The position numbers and the translations under genes were made by a program. From positions 4,167,022 through 4,231,021 of the forward strand of contig OY282376.1 of NCBI GenBank assembly GCA_958295845.1: a stretch of DNA of 64,000 nucleotides, given 5' to 3'. Within the stretch, counting starts at the first letter, position 1. Each line of letters begins with the position of its first letter. Shown here one piece after another: positions 550 through 13,993 of the stretch. The DNA comes from Caldilineaceae bacterium. Its GTDB lineage: Bacteria; Chloroflexota; Anaerolineae; Caldilineales; Caldilineaceae. The notes under the pieces were generated by a model. That model was given only the letters and a program-made list of their open reading frames with translations. It was not told where the DNA came from and ran no database searches.

Positions 550-1227
550 GTGAGTCACCTGATATTGGTTGTTGAAGACGACACAACCATCGCGAACTGG
601 TTGAGGGTATTCCTGGAGGAGGAGGGCTTTGCGGTCGAAGTCGCCCATGACGGCAGGACGGGTCTCAACCTGGCTCGCAGCCTTACCCCCGACCTGATTG
701 TGCTTGATCTGATGCTTCCCCGCCTCGATGGAATGGAACTCTGTCAAATTCTGCGCCGCGAATCGGATGTTCCGATCATCATGCTCACAGCAAAGGCGGG
801 CCTTGCAGACCGTACCAGGGGCCTGGACACCGGCGCTGACGACTATGTCGTCAAACCCTTCGATCCCGAGGAGGTTGTCGCACGCGCCAAAGCGGTGTTG
901 CGGCGCGTCCAGGACAGGGTTCAGCAGCGTTTGCGTCACGGTCGCATCACGATTGATGAGACGACACGGCGCGTCACAGTTGACGAAAAGCCGATCAATC
1001 TGAGCCGGACACTGTACCTGCTGCTGGCTGCATTCATGCGTCATCCGAACCAGGTACTCACACGGGACCAACTGATCGCCCTCGCCTTCGATGACGATTT
1101 CGATGCGTACGACCGGTCCATCGACAACCACATTTTTCGTCTGCGCAAGCAGATTGCCGCAGATGGTTTCCAGCCGATACAGACCGTCTACGGATCCGGC
1201 TATCGATTTGTAACGAAGGATGAATGA
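550..1227 (+). CDS. OmpR/PhoB-family response regulator
   Basis: Cytoplasmic DNA-binding response regulator of 225 residues, the normal length for the OmpR family. The receiver domain (about 4-115) shows the acidic pocket E9-D10-D11, the phosphoacceptor D53 in VLDLMLP, the switch residue T80 and the conserved K102 in VKPFD. The C-terminal part (about 130-222) is a winged helix ending in the typical YGSGYRF wing. The start is a GTG; the nearby ATG at 543 is in another frame. Its stop overlaps the kinase start as ATGA, so the pair is translationally coupled. Likely targets are the lipoprotein genes that follow on the same strand, but this is inferred from position only. Confidence 0.93.
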   Translation: MSHLILVVEDDTTIANWLRVFLEEEGFAVEVAHDGRTGLNLARSLTPDLIVLDLMLPRLDGMELCQILRRESDVPIIMLTAKAGLADRTRGLDTGADDYVVKPFDPEEVVARAKAVLRRVQDRVQQRLRHGRITIDETTRRVTVDEKPINLSRTLYLLLAAFMRHPNQVLTRDQLIALAFDDDFDAYDRSIDNHIFRLRKQIAADGFQPIQTVYGSGYRFVTKDE

Positions 1228-2675
1228 TGTCGTTATACTGGCGCTTTCTGGGGGCGTTTGTCCTACTGATTCTGTTCGCCGTTTCGCTCAGCGTCGGCAT
1301 CGGATACTATGCGACGCTGGACCGATTGCACACATATGGCGGCGAGCTCAGCAGCAAGGCAGCTGAGCTTGTCGCCCAGAAGCTAGGCCAATCCTACACG
1401 TACTCAGACGGCTGGGAGACGCTGGTCGTCACAGTGTCCGAAGCAGGCTCAGGCAATCTCATCAGTTCAAGAAGAGAACAAGAGCAACGCCACGAAGACA
1501 ATATGCAAGAGGAGCACTATGTACTGTTCCACAAAAGGGTAAGCGGAGATGAGATACTTGTATTTGTCGACGTTGGCGATGAATATGCCTTGTACGACGA
1601 CCTCTCCGATTTGCTGCAAGACCGAGCCGCATCCGAACTGAATGAACAGATCGTTAATGAGCAAGTTGTCAATGTAGCCGACGACAGCGCTCGCCAAGCG
1701 GTGGGGTATGCCATCCTGGATTTCTATCAGGAGTTCGGCGCAACCGAATCACGAAGCTTTGTCCGAGGCCTGCTTTACACCACAGTCATCGGCGGACTGC
1801 TGACCGTCGCCATTGCGCTCTTGCTCGCCGCCTGGCTCTCCAAACGCATCTCCACCCCTGTTACTGCCTTGACCCAGGCCTTCCGGACCGTTGCCCAACG
1901 CGGGGATACCGCTTTGCTCCCGGTTACTTCCTCTGATGAACTGGGGCAGATGAGCAGCGCTTTCAACAAGATGACAACCGCTCTGCAGACGCAACGCGAC
2001 CTGCGCAACCGTCTGCTCGACGATGTTTCCCACGAGCTGAGCACGCCCCTGAGCATCATCCGTCTCGAGGCCCACGCGCTGCGCAGAGGCCTGCAATCCC
2101 CGTCGCAGGCCGCCGACCGGATTGTTCAGGAGGTCAATATGCTGGGCAACCTGGTGCGCGATCTGGGCTGGCTGGCCGAAACCGAGTCGGACGAGTTGCA
2201 GCTCACCGTTGAATCCTGCGCCATCGATCAACTTCTCACCGCTGAACTGGCGCGCTGGCAGCAACAGGCAGAGATGAACCGAATCACACTCTCGCTGCAG
2301 TTGCCCCCTGACCCGCCGAACTTCAACCTGGACCCGATGCGCATGAGCCAGGCGCTCGGCAATGTGATAGACAACGCCCTCCGGCATACGCAGGCTGATG
2401 GACAGGTTGAGGTTGCCGCAACTATGGAAGCGGGGCGGCAGCTCACGATTTCCGTAACCGACGACGGAGCGGGGATCAGTTCCACCGATCTGCCTCACAT
2501 TGTGGACCGCCTCTACCGCGCCGACCGATCGCGCAGCCGCCGTACAGGGGGCGCAGGCCTGGGGCTGGCCATTACGCGCGCAGTCGTCGAAGCACACGGG
2601 GGTACCATTGCCGTGGCGAGTGACGGACCGGGACAGGGCACAACCGTGCGAATCGATCTCCCGCTGCAGGAGTAA
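1224..2675 (+). CDS. Membrane sensor histidine kinase
   Basis: Transmitter partner of the preceding regulator, 483 residues. One membrane helix lies near residues 8-30 and another near 183-205. They enclose an extracytoplasmic sensor of about 150 residues that is rich in acidic and polar residues and resembles no sensor family I can name. A HAMP linker follows (about 205-258), then the HisKA dimerisation helix with H270 in DVSHELSTPL, and a HATPase_c domain with the N box around 380-388 (NVIDNALRHT), the G1 box DDGAGIS (413-419) and the G2 box TGGAGLGLAI (441-450). All catalytic motifs are intact. The gene ends 11 bases before the first lipoprotein gene, which has its own AAGGAG ribosome site, so the three genes are probably one operon. 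Confidence 0.93.
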   Translation: MMSLYWRFLGAFVLLILFAVSLSVGIGYYATLDRLHTYGGELSSKAAELVAQKLGQSYTYSDGWETLVVTVSEAGSGNLISSRREQEQRHEDNMQEEHYVLFHKRVSGDEILVFVDVGDEYALYDDLSDLLQDRAASELNEQIVNEQVVNVADDSARQAVGYAILDFYQEFGATESRSFVRGLLYTTVIGGLLTVAIALLLAAWLSKRISTPVTALTQAFRTVAQRGDTALLPVTSSDELGQMSSAFNKMTTALQTQRDLRNRLLDDVSHELSTPLSIIRLEAHALRRGLQSPSQAADRIVQEVNMLGNLVRDLGWLAETESDELQLTVESCAIDQLLTAELARWQQQAEMNRITLSLQLPPDPPNFNLDPMRMSQALGNVIDNALRHTQADGQVEVAATMEAGRQLTISVTDDGAGISSTDLPHIVDRLYRADRSRSRRTGGAGLGLAITRAVVEAHGGTIAVASDGPGQGTTVRIDLPLQE

Positions 2676-2686
2676 GGAGACAAATC

Positions 2687-3448
2687 ATGTTCAAAGGAAT
2701 TCTGCTCGTCGGGCTCGTTCTTCTTGCCGCGGCCTGCACGGTTACACCGGCTGCATCTTCCGTTGCGACACGATCGGTGCAGGAGCCAAGAGCACTGGCT
2801 GTGTTGGCAGCGGAGCAAGGGTCAACACCGCTGCCTGTGTCCGGAGCGGCGCAGGGGCAGGCAGTGCTGACAGTGTCCGAAGAGCCGGCTGATTGTCCCG
2901 GCGGCTCTCTCAGGATGCTGCCCGGGCAGACTGCATTCGACCCCATTGCAGATGATATACCGGCTTATATTGACATTGTCGGCGCGGCGTCCAGCCTGGA
3001 TGGTGAAACGCTGACGGCGGTCTTCTCTCTGAGGGAGGTCCCCGCAGAGATGGCGTTCAACAGGGAAGGTGTCAAGGACCTTCACTCCGAATATATGTGG
3101 ACGGTTGAAATTTTCGTGGAGAACAGCGAGGAGTCCGAGTCTGAACAGATGGAATACATGCTGGGCGCGGTTTACTCGGCCAGAAGGGTCCTGGCAGACA
3201 CGCCGGCGGCCACTCGTCCTTTCCAGGAGGCTGTGCGAAGCACCTTGTGGAAGGCCAAGCACGATCATGAACAGGACGTGACTTTTTTGATAAACGTACC
3301 CGTTCATGTCCGTATGCTCGTCTCTCACGAAGAGGACACGCTCACGCTTATCAGCGAGGTGCCGGGCATCACGTCGGAGTCGACCCTTTTGTTCTCGACC
3401 TATGACATTCTGCTCGGTCAAGACGGCGTCTCTTGTCACCCTGGTTGA
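2687..3448 (+). CDS. Lipoprotein with one copy of the window's unnamed repeat domain
   Basis: 253-residue predicted lipoprotein. The signal peptide ends in LLAAAC, so C17 would be lipidated. A low-complexity Ala/Val/Ser linker follows, then one domain of about 170 residues. The domain contains PGQTAFDPIADDIPAYIDI, then LTAVFSLREVP, and IPAY/EVPGITSES-type elements. It is bracketed by a Cys near its start (ADCPGG) and one near its end (DGVSCHPG). The IDxDNDxxTG motif of the multi-copy relatives is degenerate here (ENSEESESE). I do not recognise the family. It starts 11 bases after the kinase gene with a good AAGGAG site. The next gene is a close paralogue with the same lipobox, so the two arose by tandem duplication. 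Confidence 0.85.
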   Translation: MFKGILLVGLVLLAAACTVTPAASSVATRSVQEPRALAVLAAEQGSTPLPVSGAAQGQAVLTVSEEPADCPGGSLRMLPGQTAFDPIADDIPAYIDIVGAASSLDGETLTAVFSLREVPAEMAFNREGVKDLHSEYMWTVEIFVENSEESESEQMEYMLGAVYSARRVLADTPAATRPFQEAVRSTLWKAKHDHEQDVTFLINVPVHVRMLVSHEEDTLTLISEVPGITSESTLLFSTYDILLGQDGVSCHPG

Positions 3449-3541
3449 TTCAGCCCTCCCGGCTCACGTCCATGCAGCACAAAGAGCGGCCGGGTCAGAC
3501 GTAACCCAAACCCTGCCTCGAGTTCCCTAGGAGAATTCACC
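3449..3541 (+). repeat. Duplicated 93-base intergenic spacer, copy 1
   Basis: The gap between the first two lipoprotein genes is exactly 93 bases, as is the next gap. The first part just after the stop codon is nearly the same in both: TTCxGCCCxCCCGG followed by xTCACGTCCATGC. Conservation fades towards the ribosome site of the next gene. This shows that spacer and gene were copied together. No terminator is visible, so read-through is likely. Confidence 0.7.
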
Positions 3542-4324
3542 GTGTTCAAAAGCTTTGTGATCGTCGGCCTCGCACTTCTCGCTGCTGCCTGCGTGCCAAT
3601 ACCTGCGGAGCCGCCGGCAGCAGCGGAACCACCGCAGACGTCAGATCCCCCCGCAACATCGGAGCCAGCGCATACATCAGAGCCGTCGCGGGGGCCAAGA
3701 ATGATCCCAGCGTTCGAAAATGTCGCCGACTGCCCCGATGGAGATGTGCCTGGCCCTGCCGTCACCCAGGTTGTCATTGACTATCTTGAAATGCTGCCCG
3801 GTCAGAGCGCGAACGATCCCGTCGCAGACAACATACCGGCTTACGTTGATATGACCAGGGCGGAATCCAACCTGGCGGGTGAGACCCTGACGGCTGTTTT
3901 CCATCTGAGGGAAGTCCCCGAGGAATTGGAGTTCAACAGGAAAGGTGTCGACCACATGAGCCCGGAGTATATGTGGATGATTCACATTGACGCCGATGGC
4001 GAGGACGAAACTGAATCTGAACGATACGAGTACACGTTTGGAGCCTTTTCCAACCTCACTCCGGGGCGGACATACAGACAGACCAAAACCCTCTCATTTG
4101 AAGACGGGATTCAGATCATTTTGTGGGAACACCGGCGTGATCACAAAGGGATTGAATCACAATTGATAGACGTGCCCGCTGATGCCCGACTAATCGTCTC
4201 TTACGACGACAACACGCTCACGCTAGTCAGCGAGGTTCCGGGCATCACATCCGAATCAGTCCTTATGTTTTTGACCTTGGACACCCTGCTCGGTCTGGAT
4301 GGGGTCTCTTGCCGTCCTGGTTAA
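3542..4324 (+). CDS. Lipoprotein with one copy of the repeat domain, paralogue of the previous gene
   Basis: 260-residue predicted lipoprotein starting at GTG, preceded by TAGGAGAATTC as ribosome site. Its signal (MFKSFVIVGLALLAAAC) matches the preceding gene almost residue for residue, with C17 as the lipidation site. An Ala/Pro/Ser/Thr-rich linker (about 18-55) follows, then the single repeat domain (about 60-260). The domain has ADCPDG at its start, LTAVFHLREVPEELEFNRKG in the middle, and EVPGITSES and DGVSCRPG at the end. The Ca-site-like motif is weak (IDADGEDETES). The product would sit on the outer face of the cytoplasmic membrane. Function unknown. Confidence 0.85.
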   Translation: MFKSFVIVGLALLAAACVPIPAEPPAAAEPPQTSDPPATSEPAHTSEPSRGPRMIPAFENVADCPDGDVPGPAVTQVVIDYLEMLPGQSANDPVADNIPAYVDMTRAESNLAGETLTAVFHLREVPEELEFNRKGVDHMSPEYMWMIHIDADGEDETESERYEYTFGAFSNLTPGRTYRQTKTLSFEDGIQIILWEHRRDHKGIESQLIDVPADARLIVSYDDNTLTLVSEVPGITSESVLMFLTLDTLLGLDGVSCRPG

Positions 4325-4417
4325 TTCGGCCCGCCCGGTTCACGTCCATGCGTCAGACAGGGAGGCCAGGTTCGACGAAGCCCGAATGTCGCTTTCATTT
4401 TCCAGGGGGAATCCACC
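4325..4417 (+). repeat. Duplicated 93-base intergenic spacer, copy 2
   Basis: Same length as the spacer at 3449-3541 and alike for about the first 30 bases, including TCACGTCCATGC. The region just before the next start codon is AGGGGGAATCCACC. It points to stepwise tandem copying of the lipoprotein genes. Confidence 0.7.
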
Positions 4418-6754
4418 ATGTTCAGAAACCTTGTGGTTGTCGGACTCGCGCTTCTCACCGCCGCCTGCGCACCCATACCGGCAGAGCCGCCGGCAGCATC
4501 GGAACTGTCGCGTCCGGTGGACGGCTCCGCAGCTGTTTCAGAGCAGGATGAATTCAAAGATCTCTCTCGCGACCTGGTTGCGCACATAGATATTCGCGGC
4601 GTCACGACAGCGCTGGACGGGGAGACCTTAACCGTCACCTTTCAACTCAGGGATCTGCCGGAGACGTTGACCTTCAACAGAACGGGGGTGCCGAAGCATG
4701 CCCTGGAGTACAACTGGGAGGTGTCGATCGATGTAGACAGCGACCCGGAAACAGGCAGCGCCGGGTTCGATTACATGCTGTCTGCCGGCCATTTCGTGCA
4801 TCCGCTCGCAAAAAACAGCGATACGGTGGCGGAGATAACCCAACCGGGCTTCGTCAAAGCCAGCCTTTGGGGGTTGAACCGGCAGGGGTACAGGGTTCCG
4901 GCAGAGGCAGATATCGCGATCGAGGTATCTGCCGAGGAGAACACGATAACGCTTTCGGGAGAGATTCCCGGGATCACGGAAGCGTCGCGGCTCAAGCTCC
5001 GGGCGTATGATTTCTTCGCCGGCTCAGTAGAGATGAGCGGTCATGGGCCGTCGAGCACGGGCCTGGCCGCCAGCCAGTGCATACCTGACCGGCCCATTGT
5101 TACGCCCGGTCAGACCGTGCTGGACGCAGCCGCCGACGTGCCGGCCGCGCATATCGACATTATCGAGATCAACAGCTCCCTTTCTGAAGAGATCCTGACC
5201 GTCGTGTTTCAACTCAGAGACGTTCCGGAGACGTTAACGTTCGACAGAACGGGCGTGCCGGAGAAGGCCCTGGAGTACAACTGGGAGGTGTCGATCGATG
5301 TGGACAACGACCGCACAACAGGCTCCTACGGGTTCGACTACGCTCTGTCCGCCATGCACTTTGTGTTCCCCAGGGCCGGCGGCATCAATACAATCGCAGC
5401 TATAGATACGCCGGGGGTTCTGCAAACCAACACCTGGGATCTGGATCAACATGACTCCATGACAATCGAATGGGGCCGCCTCGAAGTATCCGCTGAAAAC
5501 AACACGATAACGCTTTCCGGGAAAGTCCCGGGCATCACCGCGGAATCCCGGCTTGCGTTCGGGGCTTCCGATTACCTGGGCGGCACGGAGGAGGTTGGAT
5601 GTTTTCTCTCGAACAGCCTGGGTCATGAGCCGTTCAGACAGTGTACGCCGTATGACGCCCCGGTCAGGGCCGGGAGTGCCGTCGCCGATGACCTGTCCGA
5701 TGTACCTGCCGCGCATATAGATATCACGGCGGTCGACACCTCCCTTTCAGGGGAGACGCTGACGGCCGTTTTCCATCTCAGAGACGTTCCGGAGACATTG
5801 ACATTCGACAGGGCAGGCGTGCCGGATGATGAGCTTGAGTACAGCTGGAAGGTGTCTGTCGATGCGGACAATGACCCCGAGACCGGTTGGGGGGGGATCG
5901 ACTATACCCTTTCCGCCGTGCACAAAGTGTCCGCCACCTCCAGTGGAGGTGGCACAACGGCGCCCATAGAGGCAGGGAGGAATGTACAGGTCAGCACGCG
6001 CAAATTGACGCCGGGAGAAGGTTTTGCCTTCTTCGAAGATGCCCGCCTTGAAGTATCTGCCGAGGACAACACGATCACCCTTTCCGGGGAGATTCCCGGC
6101 ATCACGACCGTGTCGCCGCTCGCGTTCGAGGCTTACGACTATTCAGGAGGTACGGAGATGGTGGGATGTCTGTCTCCCGTGCCTGTCACATATGAAGCCC
6201 CCTGCGATTCTGACGACACCATGATTGCGCCTGGGCAGACCGTGAACGACGGCGTCACCGACACGTTGCCCGCGCACATGGACATCACCCAAATCAGCAC
6301 AACCCTGACCGGCGAGACGCTTGCCGTTGTCTTCCATCTCAGGGATATTCCGGAGACGCTGGCGTTCAACAGGGAGGGCGTCCGGGATGACATGTTGGAG
6401 TACCTTTGGTCTGTGTCGATCGACGTGGACAACGACCGCGCAACAGGCGGATATCTGGGAGATGACTACAGTATGTCCGCCAGCCGCTTCAGGCATCCCT
6501 CGTTCAGTGACGCGGGTGTTCATCTGCCTATTGAAGAAGCTGTGCAGGTCGACACTTGGAAGATGGACCCGTATGGCGTTTTCGCCGCCTATCTGAGCAG
6601 CGCCGGCATTGAGGTGTCGTCTGAAGAGAACACGATTACGCTTGTCGGCGATATTCCCGGCATTACGTCAGAGTCGCGGCTTGTTTTCGAGGCCTATGAT
6701 TTTCTGCACGGTTCGGAGCAGGTGACTTGCCAGGTTTCTGTTGACAGCAGGTGA
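4418..6754 (+). CDS. Lipoprotein with four copies of the repeat domain
   Basis: 778-residue predicted lipoprotein. The signal MFRNLVVVGLALLTAAC gives C17 as lipidation site, and a short Ala/Pro linker follows. Four repeat domains of about 185 residues follow, starting near residues 45, 225, 408 and 594. The common core runs hIDIxxVxTxLxGETLTxxF, then LRDxPETLTFxRxGV, LEYxWxVSIDVDND, xxTG, and ends in EIPGITxxSxLxFxAYD. Units 2, 3 and 4 have a Cys at each end. Unit 1 lacks both (SVEMS replaces the usual VGC). The domain reads as a secreted beta-rich module, and the acidic IDVDNDxxTG turn could bind calcium. Units 1, 2 and 4 are the closest relatives of units 8, 7 and 9 of the giant protein downstream. 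Function unknown; a surface adhesin or ligand-binding role is a guess. Confidence 0.87.
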   Translation: MFRNLVVVGLALLTAACAPIPAEPPAASELSRPVDGSAAVSEQDEFKDLSRDLVAHIDIRGVTTALDGETLTVTFQLRDLPETLTFNRTGVPKHALEYNWEVSIDVDSDPETGSAGFDYMLSAGHFVHPLAKNSDTVAEITQPGFVKASLWGLNRQGYRVPAEADIAIEVSAEENTITLSGEIPGITEASRLKLRAYDFFAGSVEMSGHGPSSTGLAASQCIPDRPIVTPGQTVLDAAADVPAAHIDIIEINSSLSEEILTVVFQLRDVPETLTFDRTGVPEKALEYNWEVSIDVDNDRTTGSYGFDYALSAMHFVFPRAGGINTIAAIDTPGVLQTNTWDLDQHDSMTIEWGRLEVSAENNTITLSGKVPGITAESRLAFGASDYLGGTEEVGCFLSNSLGHEPFRQCTPYDAPVRAGSAVADDLSDVPAAHIDITAVDTSLSGETLTAVFHLRDVPETLTFDRAGVPDDELEYSWKVSVDADNDPETGWGGIDYTLSAVHKVSATSSGGGTTAPIEAGRNVQVSTRKLTPGEGFAFFEDARLEVSAEDNTITLSGEIPGITTVSPLAFEAYDYSGGTEMVGCLSPVPVTYEAPCDSDDTMIAPGQTVNDGVTDTLPAHMDITQISTTLTGETLAVVFHLRDIPETLAFNREGVRDDMLEYLWSVSIDVDNDRATGGYLGDDYSMSASRFRHPSFSDAGVHLPIEEAVQVDTWKMDPYGVFAAYLSSAGIEVSSEENTITLVGDIPGITSESRLVFEAYDFLHGSEQVTCQVSVDSR

Positions 6755-6944
6755 AAGCGAGTTCCGGCATGACAATCGTTATTGCGACCGGATTGGAACC
6801 GTCGTTCTTTGACTGACCGTTCATATGAGGAAAGGAGAGGTGTTTTAGTTCGTGGTCCACTTTTCGGGACTCACAATACTGCCACCCTTTATGTTTTTTC
6901 TGGCACTTAGTCAGATGTATGCCGAAAGCTGAGAGGAGAAACTG
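6755..6944 (+). other. Gap before the SIMPL gene, with a 13-base element shared with the giant-gene leader
   Basis: This 190-base gap contains CACAATACTGCCA at 6872-6884. The same 13 bases recur at 8010-8022, upstream of the giant repeat gene. The stretch around the element is AT-richer than the genes, as expected for a promoter region. No clear -35/-10 pair or terminator was found. Confidence 0.4.
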
Positions 6945-7682
6945 ATGAACAGAATCCTGATCAACTCGCTCATCGTTCTGGCCTGCTTATTTGCGCCCGT
7001 AAATGGCTACGCGGCGCTTGCATCGGACGAGGATGTTGACGGCCTAACACCGGTGGATGGCCGGCCCGGCATAAGCGTCACCGGCTATGGATACGCTTCC
7101 GCACCACCTGATGCAGCGCGAGTTTACCTGACTCTGGGTTCCCAACCCGGTTTTCCAGGCGTTGGAAGCGGCATGCTCATGGTCGATGCGGAGAGAGTTG
7201 AAAATGTGCGTGACCTGTTGCTGGAAAGAGGGATAAGAGAAGAGACGGTGGAGACCAAACATCTCGTCTACAGCCTCTTCGCCCCTACGAACCCGACGAG
7301 TGAAATCGCGTTTATCCATGACGACCCCGGCGGCCTGCAGGAATTCCTGCAGGAGCTGCATAAGGCGTTGCAAGCGCAGCAGGCGCCGGCGCTGCTGTCC
7401 ACGCAGGTTACGTTCATCGTGGAAGACTGCTACGCTCTTGAGGAGGAAGCGATTCTGGATGCCTTCGCCGATGCCAAGATGCGGGCAGGCCGTCTTTCCC
7501 GTTTGTTGGACCTGTCTCTTGGTGAGGAGGTCATCGCTGTTTCCGAGGAGATAAGTGCTCCTCAATGCAGAGCTTCCTCCTGGTCCGACTTCATAAGCCG
7601 GGCGGCCTTTCCGCTCGAGAACAATGTTGCCGAGGTGGAGGCAGGAGCGATGCTGAGGGTTTCGTTCGCGATTGAGAGGTAG
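6945..7682 (+). CDS. Secreted SIMPL-domain (DUF541) protein
   Basis: 245 residues with a signal peptide (MNRILINSLIVLACLFAPVNGYA) and no lipobox, so it is probably exported and released or loosely held. The mature part starts with GISVTGYGYASAPPDAARVYL, the usual opening of the SIMPL family, in which a hydrophobic strand with GxG is followed by PDxA. Family members are periplasmic or extracytoplasmic proteins of about 230-250 residues with poorly defined roles; mammalian SIMPL was found as an IRAK-binding protein. A ribosome site (GAGGAGAAACTG) precedes the ATG. It lies between two repeat-domain genes on the same strand and may belong to the same regulon. Confidence 0.85.
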   Translation: MNRILINSLIVLACLFAPVNGYAALASDEDVDGLTPVDGRPGISVTGYGYASAPPDAARVYLTLGSQPGFPGVGSGMLMVDAERVENVRDLLLERGIREETVETKHLVYSLFAPTNPTSEIAFIHDDPGGLQEFLQELHKALQAQQAPALLSTQVTFIVEDCYALEEEAILDAFADAKMRAGRLSRLLDLSLGEEVIAVSEEISAPQCRASSWSDFISRAAFPLENNVAEVEAGAMLRVSFAIER

Positions 7683-8497
7683 ATCCGGTGGTTGAGCTTG
7701 GTGGGTTTACTTTATCAGGAACTGCAAGTATGTGGCCTGGACAGCCCCGGCAGGCAAGCTGTCGGGAAGCAGATTGCGCTGCTTCCTTCTCGCCGCCCTG
7801 CCCATGCACCCGGAGCAGATGATTCACCGTCCCCCGGACGGTGCGTCGACAGTCGGTTTGCGGGCTCCAGTTGTCGGGAAACGCATGGAGCGCGACAGAC
7901 GCGCCTTGCCTCTGCCGGCGCAGCGACCGGGTGCGGTCCCTGATTGGCGACGCGTAGGGACCAAACACTCTTCATTCTGTCGTTTACAGGGCGATAGACT
8001 TGATATTGCCACAATACTGCCATATGAAACGTGTTGAATTACACAAAAACTACATTTCCAGGCTGTATAATTCAAGGGCAACCTCCGCCATTCTGACGGT
8101 GGCGCATAGGGACCACCGGCCGGAAAACTCAGTTTTGAGTCTGTGCAAAGGTTTGACAGGAGGAATTTCCGCCAGTGCCATGAAAACCAGCGCATGCATC
8201 ATATCATTGCTGGTCCGGCATGCACCATGGTTCGCGGGCCCACTGTTGAGGCCAGACTCACATATCTTCGGGAACGCTGCCCACATTCTGCTCGTTTGAC
8301 GCAAAACAGTGCTTACTTGTCCTGCCTGTCATCCAAGTGGAGTGGGGCGAAGGCATATCTGAACCAGCGGACATACAGGCAAGGTCGTGGCTGGCAGGCG
8401 TCTGTCCGGCACTCATTCAATGCTGCGCGCGCTTCCCGATTTGGGAGTCCCATGGTGTCTGGAGCGGGCCCCCTTTTATCTCCCAGGAGAAGGAACA
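7683..8497. other. Long leader region before the giant repeat gene, no convincing gene
   Basis: About 815 bases without a gene I can support. Several ORFs of 60-144 codons cross it on both strands, but their compositions (runs of Arg, His, Pro) look like shadow frames and none has a good ribosome site. It contains the 13-base element CACAATACTGCCA at 8010-8022, an AT-rich patch at about 7990-8080 and an AGGAGG at 8158-8163 not followed by a well-placed start. It could contain a long 5' untranslated leader or the promoter for the giant gene. Confidence 0.5.
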
Positions 8498-11400
8498 ATG
8501 AAGAGCAAGAACCTTGTCGGTTTTCTGCTTGTTGTTGTCTTGCTGGTCACAGGGACAACTCCTGTTGTTGCGCATGAGGTCAGCCAGTGCGGTTCGGTGG
8601 AGCCGATCAGGCCGGGAGATTCCCTGACCGATGCCGTCTCGGACGTGCCGGCCGCGCATATAGACATCACCGAAGTTGAAACTACCCTGTCCGGCGAGAG
8701 ATTGACGGTTGTGTTTCATCTCAGAGACCTGCCGGAGACCTTGAGGTTCAATCGGACGGAGCATGGGGAGGGCTCGAAGGAGTATGAATGGGAGGTCGCA
8801 ATCGATGTGGACAACGACCACAGCACCGGCCCCGGCGGGTTCGATATCTTGCTGACCGCCTACCATATCGCGTTTCTGTCACACGAAGGGACTGGTGCCG
8901 ACACGATCGCGCCAATCGGGGAGATGTTAGTGGCCGCCGTATGGGAAACTCTCGCCGACGGCTCCCACAGCGGTCTCGCCGACGCCGACCTTGCGGTGTC
9001 AGCCGAGGAAGAGACGATAACTATAACCGGCTACATTCCCGGCATCACATCCGAATCGCGACTGACATTTTCCGCTTATGATGTCGAGTTCGCCGGCGAG
9101 GCCGATCAGATGGACTGCCATGCTTCATACCGCATGAGTTTGGGACCCTGGGGATGCGACTCCGGCGCGGCCCTTACGGGGCCGGGGCAAACGGTAACGG
9201 ATGAGATCGGGGGCGCTACCGATCCGTATTTGGATATAACCAAGGTCAGCACCTCTTTGTCGGGCGAAACTCTGACAGTTGTCTTCCACCTCAGAGACGT
9301 GCCGGAGACGCTGACGTTCAATCGTTCAGGCATGTCGGAAAGCTATTTGGAGTATGCATGGGTGGTGGTCATCGATACAGACAATGACCGGGAGACAGGC
9401 TCCGGAGGTTTTGAGTATCAGATGGTGGCAGGTCACTCTGTGCCCCCATCCGAAGAGGGGCGTAACGCGAAAGCGTCTATAGAGAGCGAGGTGGAGGTCA
9501 GCGTCCGGAGTTTGGAACCGGGGAGCTCCATGTCGACTGCAGACGCCTCACTTGAGGTGTCTTCGGAAGAGGACACGATAACGCCCTCCGGCAATATTCC
9601 CGGCATTACGACAGAATCACGGCTTGCATTCAGGACGTACGATCATTTGGACGGCTTCGATGAGGTCGGATGCTTTACTTCGCAAAATCAGAGCACTCCC
9701 TCCAGCCAGTGTGGGACCGTTGCTGCGGTTACGCCTGGTCAGACTTTAGTCGATGAAGTAGCAGATGTGCCGGCCGGGCATATCGACATAACCAAAGTTG
9801 AAACTTCCCTGTCCGGAGAGAGATTGACGGTTGTGTTCCATCTCAGGGACCTGCCGGAGACCTTGAGGTTCAATCGCACGGAGCATGGGCAGGGAACGAT
9901 GGAGTATGAATGGGAGGTCGCAATCGATGTGGACAACGACCGCAGCACCGGCCCCGGCGGGTTCGATACGCTGCTGAGCGCCTACCATATTGCGTTCCTG
10001 TCGCACAGAGGGGCGGACGCCAACACGACCGCCCCAATCGGGGAGATGTTGGAGGCCAGCGTGTGGGAGATCGGCTCCGACGGCTCCACCGGTACCTTCG
10101 CGGACGCCGACCTAGCGGTGTCTGCCGAGGAAGAGACGATAACGATTTCCGGCTACATTCCCGGCATCACATCCGAATCGCGACTGACATTTTCGGCTCA
10201 TGATGTTCAGTTCGCCGGAGATGCCGATCAGTTAACCTGTCACGATCCATACAGTAAGAGTGTGGAACCACGGGGATGCGCTTCCGACAAGGCTTTGATT
10301 GGGCCGGGGCAGACCGCAACGGATGAGAGCGAGGGAGCCATCGCTTCATTTGTGGATATCACCAAGGTGAGTACAACTTTGGCAGGTGAAACTCTGACAG
10401 TTGTTTTCCATCTCAGGGATGTGCCGGAGACGCTGACATTCAATCGTGCAGGCATATCGGAAAACTATGGGGAGTACGGTTGGAATGTGTCGATCGATGT
10501 GGACAACGACCGGGAGACCGGCTATGGCGGCACTGAGTACGAGTTGTCTGCCAGCCACTTTGTGCGCTCGTCCGAAAAAGGGAATAACGCGAAGGCGTCC
10601 ATTGAGAGCAAGGTAGAGGCCAGCGTCTTGAAAGCCCGTTCGGATGGTTTTATGTCTATGTTCGACGCAACCATCGAGGTGTCCCCGGAAGAGGACACGA
10701 TAACGCTATCCGGGAATATCCCTGGGATCACGGAAAATTCACAGCTTACATTCAGATCGTACGACTATTTTGGCGGTTCCGATGAGCTCGGATGTCCTGC
10801 TACGCCTGGGCAGGGCGTACCCCAGAGCACTTTCCCGACCCATTGTACGGATGGCGACGCCACGGTTGCGCCGGGGCAAACCGCAACTGACGATGTCTCA
10901 GATGTGTTTGCGGGGTATTTGGACATTGTCGAAGTCAGCACGTCCCTTGCGGGCGAAATGCTGACCGTCGAGTTCCATCTCAGGGATATTCCGGAGACGC
11001 TGACGTTCAACAGAACGGGGACCTCGGCAAGCTCGATGGAGTACGGATGGCATGTGTCGATCGATGTGGACAACGACCAGGCGACCGGCGACGGCGGATT
11101 TGAGTACCTCCTGTCCGCTTATCACATCGTGTGGCCTGCGAATGCTGGAGACAACACGGAGGCGCCGATAGCGGAGGTGGCGGAGGCCAGAGTCTGGGAA
11201 AAGCAGATGGGGGAAGGCATCAGGTCATTTAGGGATGCCACGCTTGAGGTGTCAGAAGAGACGAACACGATGATTCTCAGCGGCCGCATTCCTGGAATTA
11301 CGCCGGACTCGCGTCTCTCGTTCTGGACGCACGGGAATCTTGCTGAGTACGACGAAGTCGGATGCCAGGCTTCGCCAAGCTCAAACGCACCAGCCAGCCA

Positions 11401-13648
11401 GTGTACGGATGGCGAGCCCAGGGTTGCGCCGGGACAGACCGCAACTGACGATGTCTCAGATGTGTCTGCCGCGTATATGGACATCACTGAAATCAGCAGC
11501 TCTCTGTCCGGCGAAATGCTGACGGTTGTCTTCCATCTCAGGGATCTGCCTGAGACGCTGACATTCAATCGCGCGGGCATATCGGAAAACTATATGGAGT
11601 ACGGGTGGGAGGTATCGATCGATGTAGATAACGACCGGTCGACGGGCGATGACGGGTCTGAGTACCTGTTGGCGGCCAGCCATTTTGTGTCCCAATTCAA
11701 TAAGGGGAGCAACACGGAGGCACCAATCGAAAGCAAGGTGAAGGCCGAAATCCTGCAAGTCCAATCAGAGGGTTTCATGATTTGGAGCGACGCGATCCTC
11801 GAGGTATCTCCGGAAGAGGATACGCTCACGCTCTCCGGACATATCCCTGGGATCACAGCAGAGTCACAGCTTGCATTCAGTACGTTTGACTATTTTGATG
11901 TTTCGGACATGGTTGGATGTCAGGATCCGCCAAGCAACCTCACATCCTCGAGCCAGTGTGATACCGATAAAGCGGTTACACCGGGGGTGAGCGTCAGCGA
12001 TGATGTCTCGGAATTCCTGGCTGCGCATCTGGATGTAACGGAGATCAGCACCTCCCTTTCCGGGGAGACTCTGAAGGTCGTGTTCCATTTCAGAGACGTT
12101 CCGGAGGCACTGACATTCAATAGATCCGGCGTGCCCGGCGATAGATTAGAGTACAGTTGGGAAGTGTCGATCGACGTGGACGCTGACCAGGATACAGGCC
12201 TCCACGGGTTCGAATACCTCCTGTCCTCGATGCACGTTTCCCACGGCGGCTCCAGCGGCCGCGACCGGAGTGCGGCTATCACAACGGACATTCTGCAGAC
12301 CAACACATGGGTTCTGGATCCAAGTGGCAGTGCAAATCGCGAAATCGATTTTCTCGAATGGGCGCGCATCGAGGTGTCGGCTGAAGAGGACACGGTAACG
12401 CTTTCGGGAGAAATCCCCGGAATCACGGCGGAGTCACAGCTTGCATTCGGTGTGTATGACTATCTGGGCGGTGCGGAGGAGGTCGGCTGTCTTACCCCGT
12501 TTGGTTTGGGCCGGCCGGCCCCCTTTCAGGGTATGTCGGACGGGTCTGAAGTAACGCCGGGTCAGTCTGTATCCGAAGATGTGTCACACGAACTGGTTGG
12601 GCACATCGATATCCGAGATGTCACGGCAACGGTTGACGGGGAGACCTTGACCGTCACTCTTGATCTCCGGGATGTTCCGGAGACGTTGAGGTTCGACAGA
12701 ACGGGGGTGCCGAAAAATGCACTGGAGTACGGTTGGGAGGTGTCGATCGACGTGGACAACGATGCGGAGACAGGCGCCGGCGGGTTCGACTCGATGCTGT
12801 CGGCCGGCTATTTCGTGCATCCCCTTGTCAAAGACAGCAATACGGCGGCAAGGATAACGCAACCGGGCTTTGTCACGGCCAGCATTTTGGGGCTGGACCG
12901 GGAGGGGAACAGGGTTCTGGCGGAGGCCGATGTCGAGGTGTTTGCCGCGGTAAACACGATAACGCTTTCGGGGGAGATTCCCGGGATCACGGGGGAATCA
13001 CCACTCCGGTTCAAGGCGTATGACTACTTTGGCGGTTCGGTCGAGATGAGCAGCCACGGTCCGTCGATCACGGGCGTAGCCGCAGACTCGTGTCTGTCTG
13101 GCAGTGCGGCAATCAGGCCGGGCCAGCGTGTCGTCGGTGCGGCCTCGGAGACGCTGCCTGCATACATAGATATTACCGAGATCAGCACAGCTCTGACAGA
13201 CGACGGGAGGCTTGTGGTCGTATTTCATCTCAGGGATGTTCCGGAGACGCTGGAATTCAGTAGGAAGGATGTTCCGAAAGATGCGTTGGAGTACAAGTGG
13301 GAGGTGTCAGTAGACGTGGTCGACGACCAGGAGCCGGGGTTGCCAGGGACTGACTACTCGTTGTCCGCCAGTTATTTCGTGTTCTCCCCGTCCAGTGACG
13401 CAGGAGTTCACTTGTCTATCGAAGAAGCTGTGCAGGCAGATTCCTGGCAGACTACTGCAGACGGTGGCGGCGCTTATCTTAGCGGCATCAGTCTGGAGGT
13501 GTCGCCTGGGGAAGACACGATAATCCTCATCGGTGATGTTCCCGGCATTACGCCGCAGTCGCGGCTTGAGTTTGAGGCCTATGATTTTCTACACGGTTCG
13601 AAGCAAGTGGCTTGCCAGGTTTTGTCCAAGTCGGGTGGCGGCGAGTAG
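8498..13648 (+). CDS. Giant secreted protein with nine tandem repeat domains
   Basis: 1716 residues from the ATG at 8498, which follows GGAGAAGGAACA and opens a clear signal peptide (MKSKNLVGFLLVVVLLVTG, then TTPVVA as a type I cleavage site). The frame is open further upstream, but that part is not signal-like. Unlike its three paralogues it has no lipobox, no C-terminal membrane segment and no sorting motif, so it is probably released. Nine units of about 185-190 residues start near 8588, 9155, 9710, 10277, 10844, 11402, 11957, 12535 and 13091. Each has DITxVxTxLSGExLTVxFHLRD, PETLxFxR, EYxWxVxIDxDND and IPGIT. All units except unit 8 are bracketed by cysteines. Units 1-2 and 3-4 are a recent duplication. 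The domain is not one I recognise. Confidence 0.88.
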   Translation: MKSKNLVGFLLVVVLLVTGTTPVVAHEVSQCGSVEPIRPGDSLTDAVSDVPAAHIDITEVETTLSGERLTVVFHLRDLPETLRFNRTEHGEGSKEYEWEVAIDVDNDHSTGPGGFDILLTAYHIAFLSHEGTGADTIAPIGEMLVAAVWETLADGSHSGLADADLAVSAEEETITITGYIPGITSESRLTFSAYDVEFAGEADQMDCHASYRMSLGPWGCDSGAALTGPGQTVTDEIGGATDPYLDITKVSTSLSGETLTVVFHLRDVPETLTFNRSGMSESYLEYAWVVVIDTDNDRETGSGGFEYQMVAGHSVPPSEEGRNAKASIESEVEVSVRSLEPGSSMSTADASLEVSSEEDTITPSGNIPGITTESRLAFRTYDHLDGFDEVGCFTSQNQSTPSSQCGTVAAVTPGQTLVDEVADVPAGHIDITKVETSLSGERLTVVFHLRDLPETLRFNRTEHGQGTMEYEWEVAIDVDNDRSTGPGGFDTLLSAYHIAFLSHRGADANTTAPIGEMLEASVWEIGSDGSTGTFADADLAVSAEEETITISGYIPGITSESRLTFSAHDVQFAGDADQLTCHDPYSKSVEPRGCASDKALIGPGQTATDESEGAIASFVDITKVSTTLAGETLTVVFHLRDVPETLTFNRAGISENYGEYGWNVSIDVDNDRETGYGGTEYELSASHFVRSSEKGNNAKASIESKVEASVLKARSDGFMSMFDATIEVSPEEDTITLSGNIPGITENSQLTFRSYDYFGGSDELGCPATPGQGVPQSTFPTHCTDGDATVAPGQTATDDVSDVFAGYLDIVEVSTSLAGEMLTVEFHLRDIPETLTFNRTGTSASSMEYGWHVSIDVDNDQATGDGGFEYLLSAYHIVWPANAGDNTEAPIAEVAEARVWEKQMGEGIRSFRDATLEVSEETNTMILSGRIPGITPDSRLSFWTHGNLAEYDEVGCQASPSSNAPASQCTDGEPRVAPGQTATDDVSDVSAAYMDITEISSSLSGEMLTVVFHLRDLPETLTFNRAGISENYMEYGWEVSIDVDNDRSTGDDGSEYLLAASHFVSQFNKGSNTEAPIESKVKAEILQVQSEGFMIWSDAILEVSPEEDTLTLSGHIPGITAESQLAFSTFDYFDVSDMVGCQDPPSNLTSSSQCDTDKAVTPGVSVSDDVSEFLAAHLDVTEISTSLSGETLKVVFHFRDVPEALTFNRSGVPGDRLEYSWEVSIDVDADQDTGLHGFEYLLSSMHVSHGGSSGRDRSAAITTDILQTNTWVLDPSGSANREIDFLEWARIEVSAEEDTVTLSGEIPGITAESQLAFGVYDYLGGAEEVGCLTPFGLGRPAPFQGMSDGSEVTPGQSVSEDVSHELVGHIDIRDVTATVDGETLTVTLDLRDVPETLRFDRTGVPKNALEYGWEVSIDVDNDAETGAGGFDSMLSAGYFVHPLVKDSNTAARITQPGFVTASILGLDREGNRVLAEADVEVFAAVNTITLSGEIPGITGESPLRFKAYDYFGGSVEMSSHGPSITGVAADSCLSGSAAIRPGQRVVGAASETLPAYIDITEISTALTDDGRLVVVFHLRDVPETLEFSRKDVPKDALEYKWEVSVDVVDDQEPGLPGTDYSLSASYFVFSPSSDAGVHLSIEEAVQADSWQTTADGGGAYLSGISLEVSPGEDTIILIGDVPGITPQSRLEFEAYDFLHGSKQVACQVLSKSGGGE
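8588..10831 (+). repeat. Two tandem copies of a 1,122-bp two-domain block
   Basis: Copy A runs 8588-9709 and copy B 9710-10831, each encoding two repeat domains (374 codons). Matching landmarks are all offset by exactly 1,122 bases: the first unit Cys codons at 8588 and 9710, GGAGGTCGCA at 8791 and 9913, the second unit Cys codons at 9155 and 10277, and TCTGACAGTT at 9271 and 10393. Long stretches of the first unit are identical at the DNA level. The block therefore duplicated as a pair, more recently than the single-domain copying. Confidence 0.9.
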
Positions 13649-13993
13649 GCATGCAGTGAAAACGACGAGGCGTTGAACGCCGAATTCGACGCCAAGTATA
13701 TCGAGAAATACGGGGTCAGCCCCGATGAAATGGGCGCTTTCCACAGTCAGAGCTACGATTCGGTGATGCTGATCGCGGCTGCAATTGCCTCAGTAGCTTC
13801 TGTCGACGACAGCGGCAATCTCATCATCGACCGTGAAGCACTGATCACTGCCATTCGCTCGGTTGATGCATTCGACGGCCTCACCGGCACAATCAGGTGC
13901 GACAGCATAGGCGAATGCGGCGCAGGGGGAGTCCAGATTTACCAGGTCACCGACGGCGCTTTCGTTCAGGTTTACGGATTCGGAATGGAGTAA
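13649..13993 (+). pseudogene. C-terminal remnant of a branched-chain amino acid type ABC binding protein
   Basis: About 115 codons in the same frame as, and directly after, the TAG of the giant gene. Read from just after the stop they give SENDEALNAEFDAKYIEKYG, then SQSYDSVMLIAAAIASV, FDGLTGTIRCDSIGECG and GGVQIYQVTDGAFVQVYGF. This is the typical last third of a Leu/Ile/Val-type periplasmic binding protein (Peripla_BP_6, LivK-like), where YDAVxLLAxAI and GxTGTIxFDxxGDC are usual. Signal peptide, N-lobe and first crossover are missing, and no permease or ATPase genes follow. A TTG at 13673 could start translation, but a functional product is unlikely. A deletion or recombination probably joined the tail to the repeat gene. 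Confidence 0.75.

Follow-up and report, generated by a model that had tools for sequence, protein, structure and literature searches.

Two cysteines bracket nearly all copies of an exported domain in one genus of Caldilineaceae, and among 225 copies they are, with a single exception, kept or lost together. The best explanation, to which we assign a probability of about 0.88, is an extracellular intradomain disulfide joining both ends of each exported domain. The first-pass annotation had proposed an intradomain disulfide clamp outside the cell, and this proposal is supported by co-absence of the two residues, by discordant junctions between neighboring units, and by bridges in a structural model next to Cys6 and Cys178 of one unit.

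Results and Discussion

Units and their cysteines in the window

The same domain is encoded by four plus-strand open reading frames (ORFs) of the window (the whole 64,000-nucleotide stretch analysed) in one, one, four and nine copies, giving 15 units. Features are listed below; Cys numbers in units of the giant protein count from position 8387.

550-1227, + strand: response regulator (Pfam; synteny), conserved upstream neighbor
1224-2675, + strand: HAMP histidine kinase (Pfam; synteny), conserved upstream neighbor
2687-3448, + strand: lipA, single-unit lipoprotein; lipobox Cys17; unit (2894-3436) bracketed by Cys70 and Cys250
3542-4324, + strand: lipB, single-unit lipoprotein; lipobox Cys17; unit (3731-4312) bracketed by Cys64 and Cys257
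4418-6754, + strand: 778-residue lipoprotein, units L1-L4; lipobox Cys17
4496-5059, + strand: unit L1, without both Cys; its upstream Cys is the lipobox Cys17 only; sister of G8
5078-5602, + strand: unit L2, Cys221 to Cys395
5642-6169, + strand: unit L3, Cys409 to Cys584
6203-6730, + strand: unit L4, Cys596 to Cys771
6945-7682, + strand: SIMPL/DUF541 protein (PF04402; synteny), frequent neighbor, between the lipoproteins and the giant protein
8498-13648 (listed ORF from 8387), + strand: giant exported protein, units G1-G9
8588-9118, + strand: unit G1, Cys68 to Cys244
9155-9673, + strand: unit G2, Cys257 to Cys429
9710-10240, + strand: unit G3, Cys442 to Cys618
10277-10795, + strand: unit G4, Cys631 to Cys803
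10844-11365, + strand: unit G5, Cys820 to Cys993
11402-11920, + strand: unit G6, Cys1006 to Cys1178; structure predicted for 11387-11938
11957-12490, + strand: unit G7, Cys1191 to Cys1368; C-terminal Cys present despite a G8 without the N-terminal Cys
12515-13072, + strand: unit G8, without both Cys; second-to-last, where most giants of the genus also keep it
13091-13615, + strand: unit G9, Cys1569 to Cys1743; N-terminal Cys present despite a G8 without the C-terminal Cys

All 15 units described in the first-pass annotation were found again at the same positions: 13 with both Cys, L1 and G8 with neither, and none with only one. The single-unit lipoproteins lipA and lipB, also said to carry the pair, do so in addition to the lipobox Cys. 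In the 13 units with Cys, the N-terminal residue lies 25-27 residues before the invariant Asp of a HIDI motif (39 in lipB, whose unit has an insertion after the first Cys), and the C-terminal residue lies 21-23 residues after the Thr of a PGIT motif. Beyond these bracketing residues, the only Cys in the four proteins are those of the lipoboxes and, in the listed giant ORF, Cys24. Cys24 falls upstream of ATG 8498 (MKSKNLVGFLLVVVLLV..., a predicted signal peptide), which from its sequence is a likelier start than GTG 8387. Read from this ATG, the giant begins with an ordinary signal peptide; the other three proteins are lipoproteins.

The co-occurrence claimed as perfect is correct within the window, but is weaker evidence than was claimed. 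L1 and G8 share 69% identity, whereas neither exceeds 50% with any other unit. They are therefore one copied Cys-less lineage, and the window alone shows one joint event rather than two. By simple counting, the 13:2:0 split has a chance of 1/105, or about 1/14 if the L1/G8 lineage is counted once.

Conservation across the genus and in distant relatives

A unit profile search found 19 copies in the genome of origin, four of them outside the window. Among 100 related genomes, units were present in 17 of 17 belonging to the genus (own genome included) and in none of the 83 others. On named genome contigs the profile matched 31 loci, all in Caldilineaceae metagenome-assembled genomes, one of which (MPML bin5) was binned from symbionts of the sponge Aplysina aerophoba (PMC5649159).

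We classified 225 full units from complete regions of the genus by automatic calls that were then corrected by eye. The corrected set comprises 193 units with both Cys, 30 with neither, one with a single Cys and one interrupted gene. Before correction, 13 units had been called as having only the C-terminal and four only the N-terminal Cys. On inspection, an insertion proved to separate the Cys from the core in nearly all of the former. Other miscalls arose where the lipobox Cys had been counted in first units of four-unit lipoproteins, or where, as in O019, the Cys belonged to the previous unit. The only true single-Cys unit (O054 in locus L057) retains the N-terminal Cys and reads GVSYRPS in place of GVSCRPG, a Cys to Tyr change; its PGIT motif is degraded, marking a drifting copy. 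The interrupted gene, a single-unit lipoprotein (L062, 5945-6570), has an in-frame TGA between the N-terminal Cys and the core, and is either a broken gene or a sequencing error. Spacing across the 225 units is mostly that of the window (N-terminal Cys 25-27 residues before the invariant Asp, C-terminal Cys 21-23 after PGIT), and 221 of them have no Cys between the two bracketing residues.

The profile also found matches in another bacterial family of the same class, namely lipoproteins with one unit and proteins of some 600 residues that end in the domain, about 30% alike to the genus units. Both Cys are present in 19/19 full distant domains and in the remote L114, that is, in 20/20 comparable sequences; in the 19 full relatives the second Cys is one of the final three residues of the chain. 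In two further sequences (L142 and L144), where the match starts only at model position 42, the terminal Cys is missing and other Cys are present, a point against the disulfide reading. Where the domain is C-terminal in a protein of about 600 residues (L116, L131-L140), the front part resembles a beta-propeller. Homologues with only one Cys, named in the first-pass annotation as evidence against a clamp if numerous, thus amount to 1/225 in the genus and 0/20 among comparable distant relatives.

Independence and covariation

Trees of the genus units were built without the Cys columns, and no root was inferred. The Cys-less units make up two clades, each set apart from all other units by a single branch (support 94-100). 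One holds 25 array units, L1 and G8 among them, and the other five single-unit lipoproteins, including L019, a copy from the own genome. The trees therefore record two joint Cys changes and one single change. Because distant relatives have both Cys, loss is the likelier direction. We count it against the disulfide reading that only two independent joint absences stand against one single loss.

Covariation across homologues, a check suggested in the first-pass annotation, came out in favor of coupling. Presence of the N-terminal and C-terminal Cys is associated at phi 0.98, the highest value of 2,556 variable-column pairs, even though the residues are about 150 positions apart; the next-ranked pairs are near neighbors in sequence. 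Cys codons are mixed at both sites (TGC/TGT 217:162, both sites summed), and the residue has therefore been kept during codon turnover. Strong covariation was also seen within an Asp/Gly-rich loop, IDVDNDxxTGxxG (for example in 11387-11938), with phi 0.92 for its two Gly. This stretch looks like a putative calcium loop, and it is lost in lipA-like and L019-like copies.

Predicted structure of a unit

AlphaFold2 modeling of G6, using 129 units in the alignment, yielded an all-beta sandwich with pLDDT 88 and pTM 0.85. Isolated single-residue bridges occur at residues 5 and 179, beside Cys6 and Cys178, as read from the DSSP string, which names no pairing partners. The model thereby indicates that the two Cys of G6 would be close together, in ends that are weakly modeled (residues 1-4 and 181-184 with pLDDT below 50; block 1-10 with a mean of 48). 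A tandem G8-G9 model (pTM 0.54) contains two domains of uncertain relative position and no bridge beside the G9 Cys.

Pairing within the unit and alternative explanations

In sequence, the two Cys facing each other across a junction are just 12-17 residues apart, and the C-terminal Cys of one unit could in principle bond with the N-terminal Cys of the next to close a loop of about 12 residues. Such a linker disulfide is strongly disfavored. After correction of lipobox miscalls, one linker Cys is present without its counterpart at 39 of 145 junctions, versus a single Cys in 1/225 units. All 39 adjoin a Cys-less unit whose neighbors retain their own Cys, as where G7 and G9 both keep the residue facing G8; pairing is therefore inside the domain and not across the linker, as the first-pass annotation had held. 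Both Cys are also present in single-unit proteins, first units and last units. Shared descent of duplicated units, with no functional coupling of the two residues, might also produce co-occurrence, and L1 and G8 are indeed sisters within one of just two Cys-less clades. We consider this extremely improbable given long retention despite synonymous codon turnover, relatives of another family that keep both Cys at about 30% likeness, and the lack of any other column pair at phi 0.98.

Very little probability attaches to the pair holding a metal or cofactor with no bond. This idea draws on fold neighbors of the G6 model that include the gamma subunits of ethylbenzene dehydrogenase and nitrite oxidoreductase (Z 7.3 and 7.1), which bind heme. 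Against it, neither Cys is part of a CxxCH motif, the core is free of other Cys in 221/225 units, His follows the C-terminal Cys in some units only, and in distant relatives the second Cys sits two to three residues from the chain end. Bonds between molecules, or bonds formed by domain swapping, could build a surface lattice, and co-conservation within units would by itself be compatible with swapped partners. However, the bridges that adjoin both Cys arise in a single-chain model, and the pair is retained to an equal degree in proteins of one unit and of nine, making a lattice of this kind very improbable as well. An intradomain disulfide is accordingly the reading we retain.

Export, candidate oxidases and gene neighborhood

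All four window proteins carry an export signal in their sequences, either a lipobox or a signal peptide. The genome encodes DsbA-like proteins, and immediately after the gene for one of these comes a DsbB-like gene; no VKOR was found in the genome. An exported domain in a cell with thiol-oxidizing genes, and Cys kept or lost jointly within one unit, are both features expected of an intradomain disulfide. We propose that a DsbA/DsbB-type oxidase would join the two Cys after export. The resulting bond would tie a flap at the N-terminus to the point where the last strand ends, closing the domain covalently at its two ends, perhaps in a stabilizing or load-bearing role. An array would then consist of closed beads on linkers of about 12 residues, and pulling on a linker, or its proteolysis, would leave the sandwich shut.

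A two-component system, unit lipoproteins and often a SIMPL protein make up a conserved neighborhood (550-7682; syntenic loci L048-L054, L069 and L093), and the response regulator/histidine kinase pair may control the array genes. In a short ORF just 3' of the giant gene (13673-13993), the match to a periplasmic binding protein (PF13458) is confined to the end of that protein, and the ORF is possibly a gene remnant.

The Cys-less unit

The unexpected element of the finding is a single Cys-less unit in a fixed place. The Cys-less unit is second-to-last in 15 multi-unit giants, with exactly one in each, and first in seven four-unit lipoproteins; there is never more than one per protein. In O011 and O019 the Cys-less unit is followed by a different Cys-containing domain. 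In the giants at L050 (ORF from 6816) and L069 (ORF from 7488), the place of a G9-type unit after it is taken by some 230 unrelated residues with several Cys.

One conceivable function, which we regard as unlikely, is that staples act as a force bypass, such that tension along the giant would run through disulfides and linkers and the lone unstapled unit would yield as a fuse or shock absorber. Were this true, stapled units would be unstretchable, and only the unstapled unit in its fixed place, membrane-proximal in the four-unit lipoprotein, could yield. Copies with and without the putative staple occur in one protein at a conserved place and so provide a natural internal control, by which the contribution of a terminal disulfide to a tandem protein is directly testable. 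In addition, the Cys-to-Cys boundary provides clear limits for an expression construct. The units make up an exported domain family that had not been catalogued and that is abundant in one genus of sponge-associated Caldilineaceae; this is a sound result, yet no new kind of biology.

Comparison with known domains

A search of the PDB by sequence with the unit profile gave no match. Composition-type matches in Pfam and NCBIfam (YrrC OB, BON, KOW, ArfA and others) were discarded as having no passing stretch or scores far below cut-off, and antibody and immunoglobulin (Ig) rows in Foldseek as generic beta-sandwich background. Well above an Ig background near Z 6, the best structural match of the G6 model is the C-terminal domain of glucodextranase (PDB 1ug9, 776-993; VIA-align Z 10.9, rmsd 3.4, 133 aligned), pointing to a fold shared with Glucodextran_C (PF09985). 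Moreover, PF09985 members are collinear with the distant-relative profile (hhalign probability 67%, 116 columns), with IDxDxxxxTG common to both. At 12% identity the units differ from the glucodextranase domain in having the terminal Cys pair and in having no glycosidase in the chain. Pfam gave no PF09985 match for the window proteins (E up to 1), nor for 129 units among the 25 families listed, and none was found in the own genome.

CBM9 (PF06452) is a further candidate beta-sandwich match (Z 8.2 for 1i82 and 7.8 for 7nwn, 138 residues), only modestly above unrelated rows. CBM9_1 (PF06452) gave no Pfam match above cut-off, and hhalign against CBM9 members returned 0.5% and no alignment. A putative Bacteroides carbohydrate-binding protein is also a structural neighbor (Z 7.8) and, like the two gamma subunits, lies above the Ig background. 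A study of TmCBM9-2 describes Trp71 and Trp175 as an aromatic sugar-binding sandwich (PMC8280721). The parts of the CBM9 and disulfide literature covered here describe no terminal disulfide of this type. The modeled unit resembles a beta-sandwich of the broad glucodextranase-C kind and, more tentatively, of the CBM9 kind, and our guess from this fold is that the array ligand might be a surface glycan.

Ig-like and similar extracellular repeat proteins have one disulfide per domain. Like Ig-type arrays, the proteins described here would be chains of beta-sandwich domains in which every domain is stapled separately by a covalent bond. Unlike in those arrays, to which they are unrelated in sequence, the staple here would connect the two ends of a domain rather than its two sheets.
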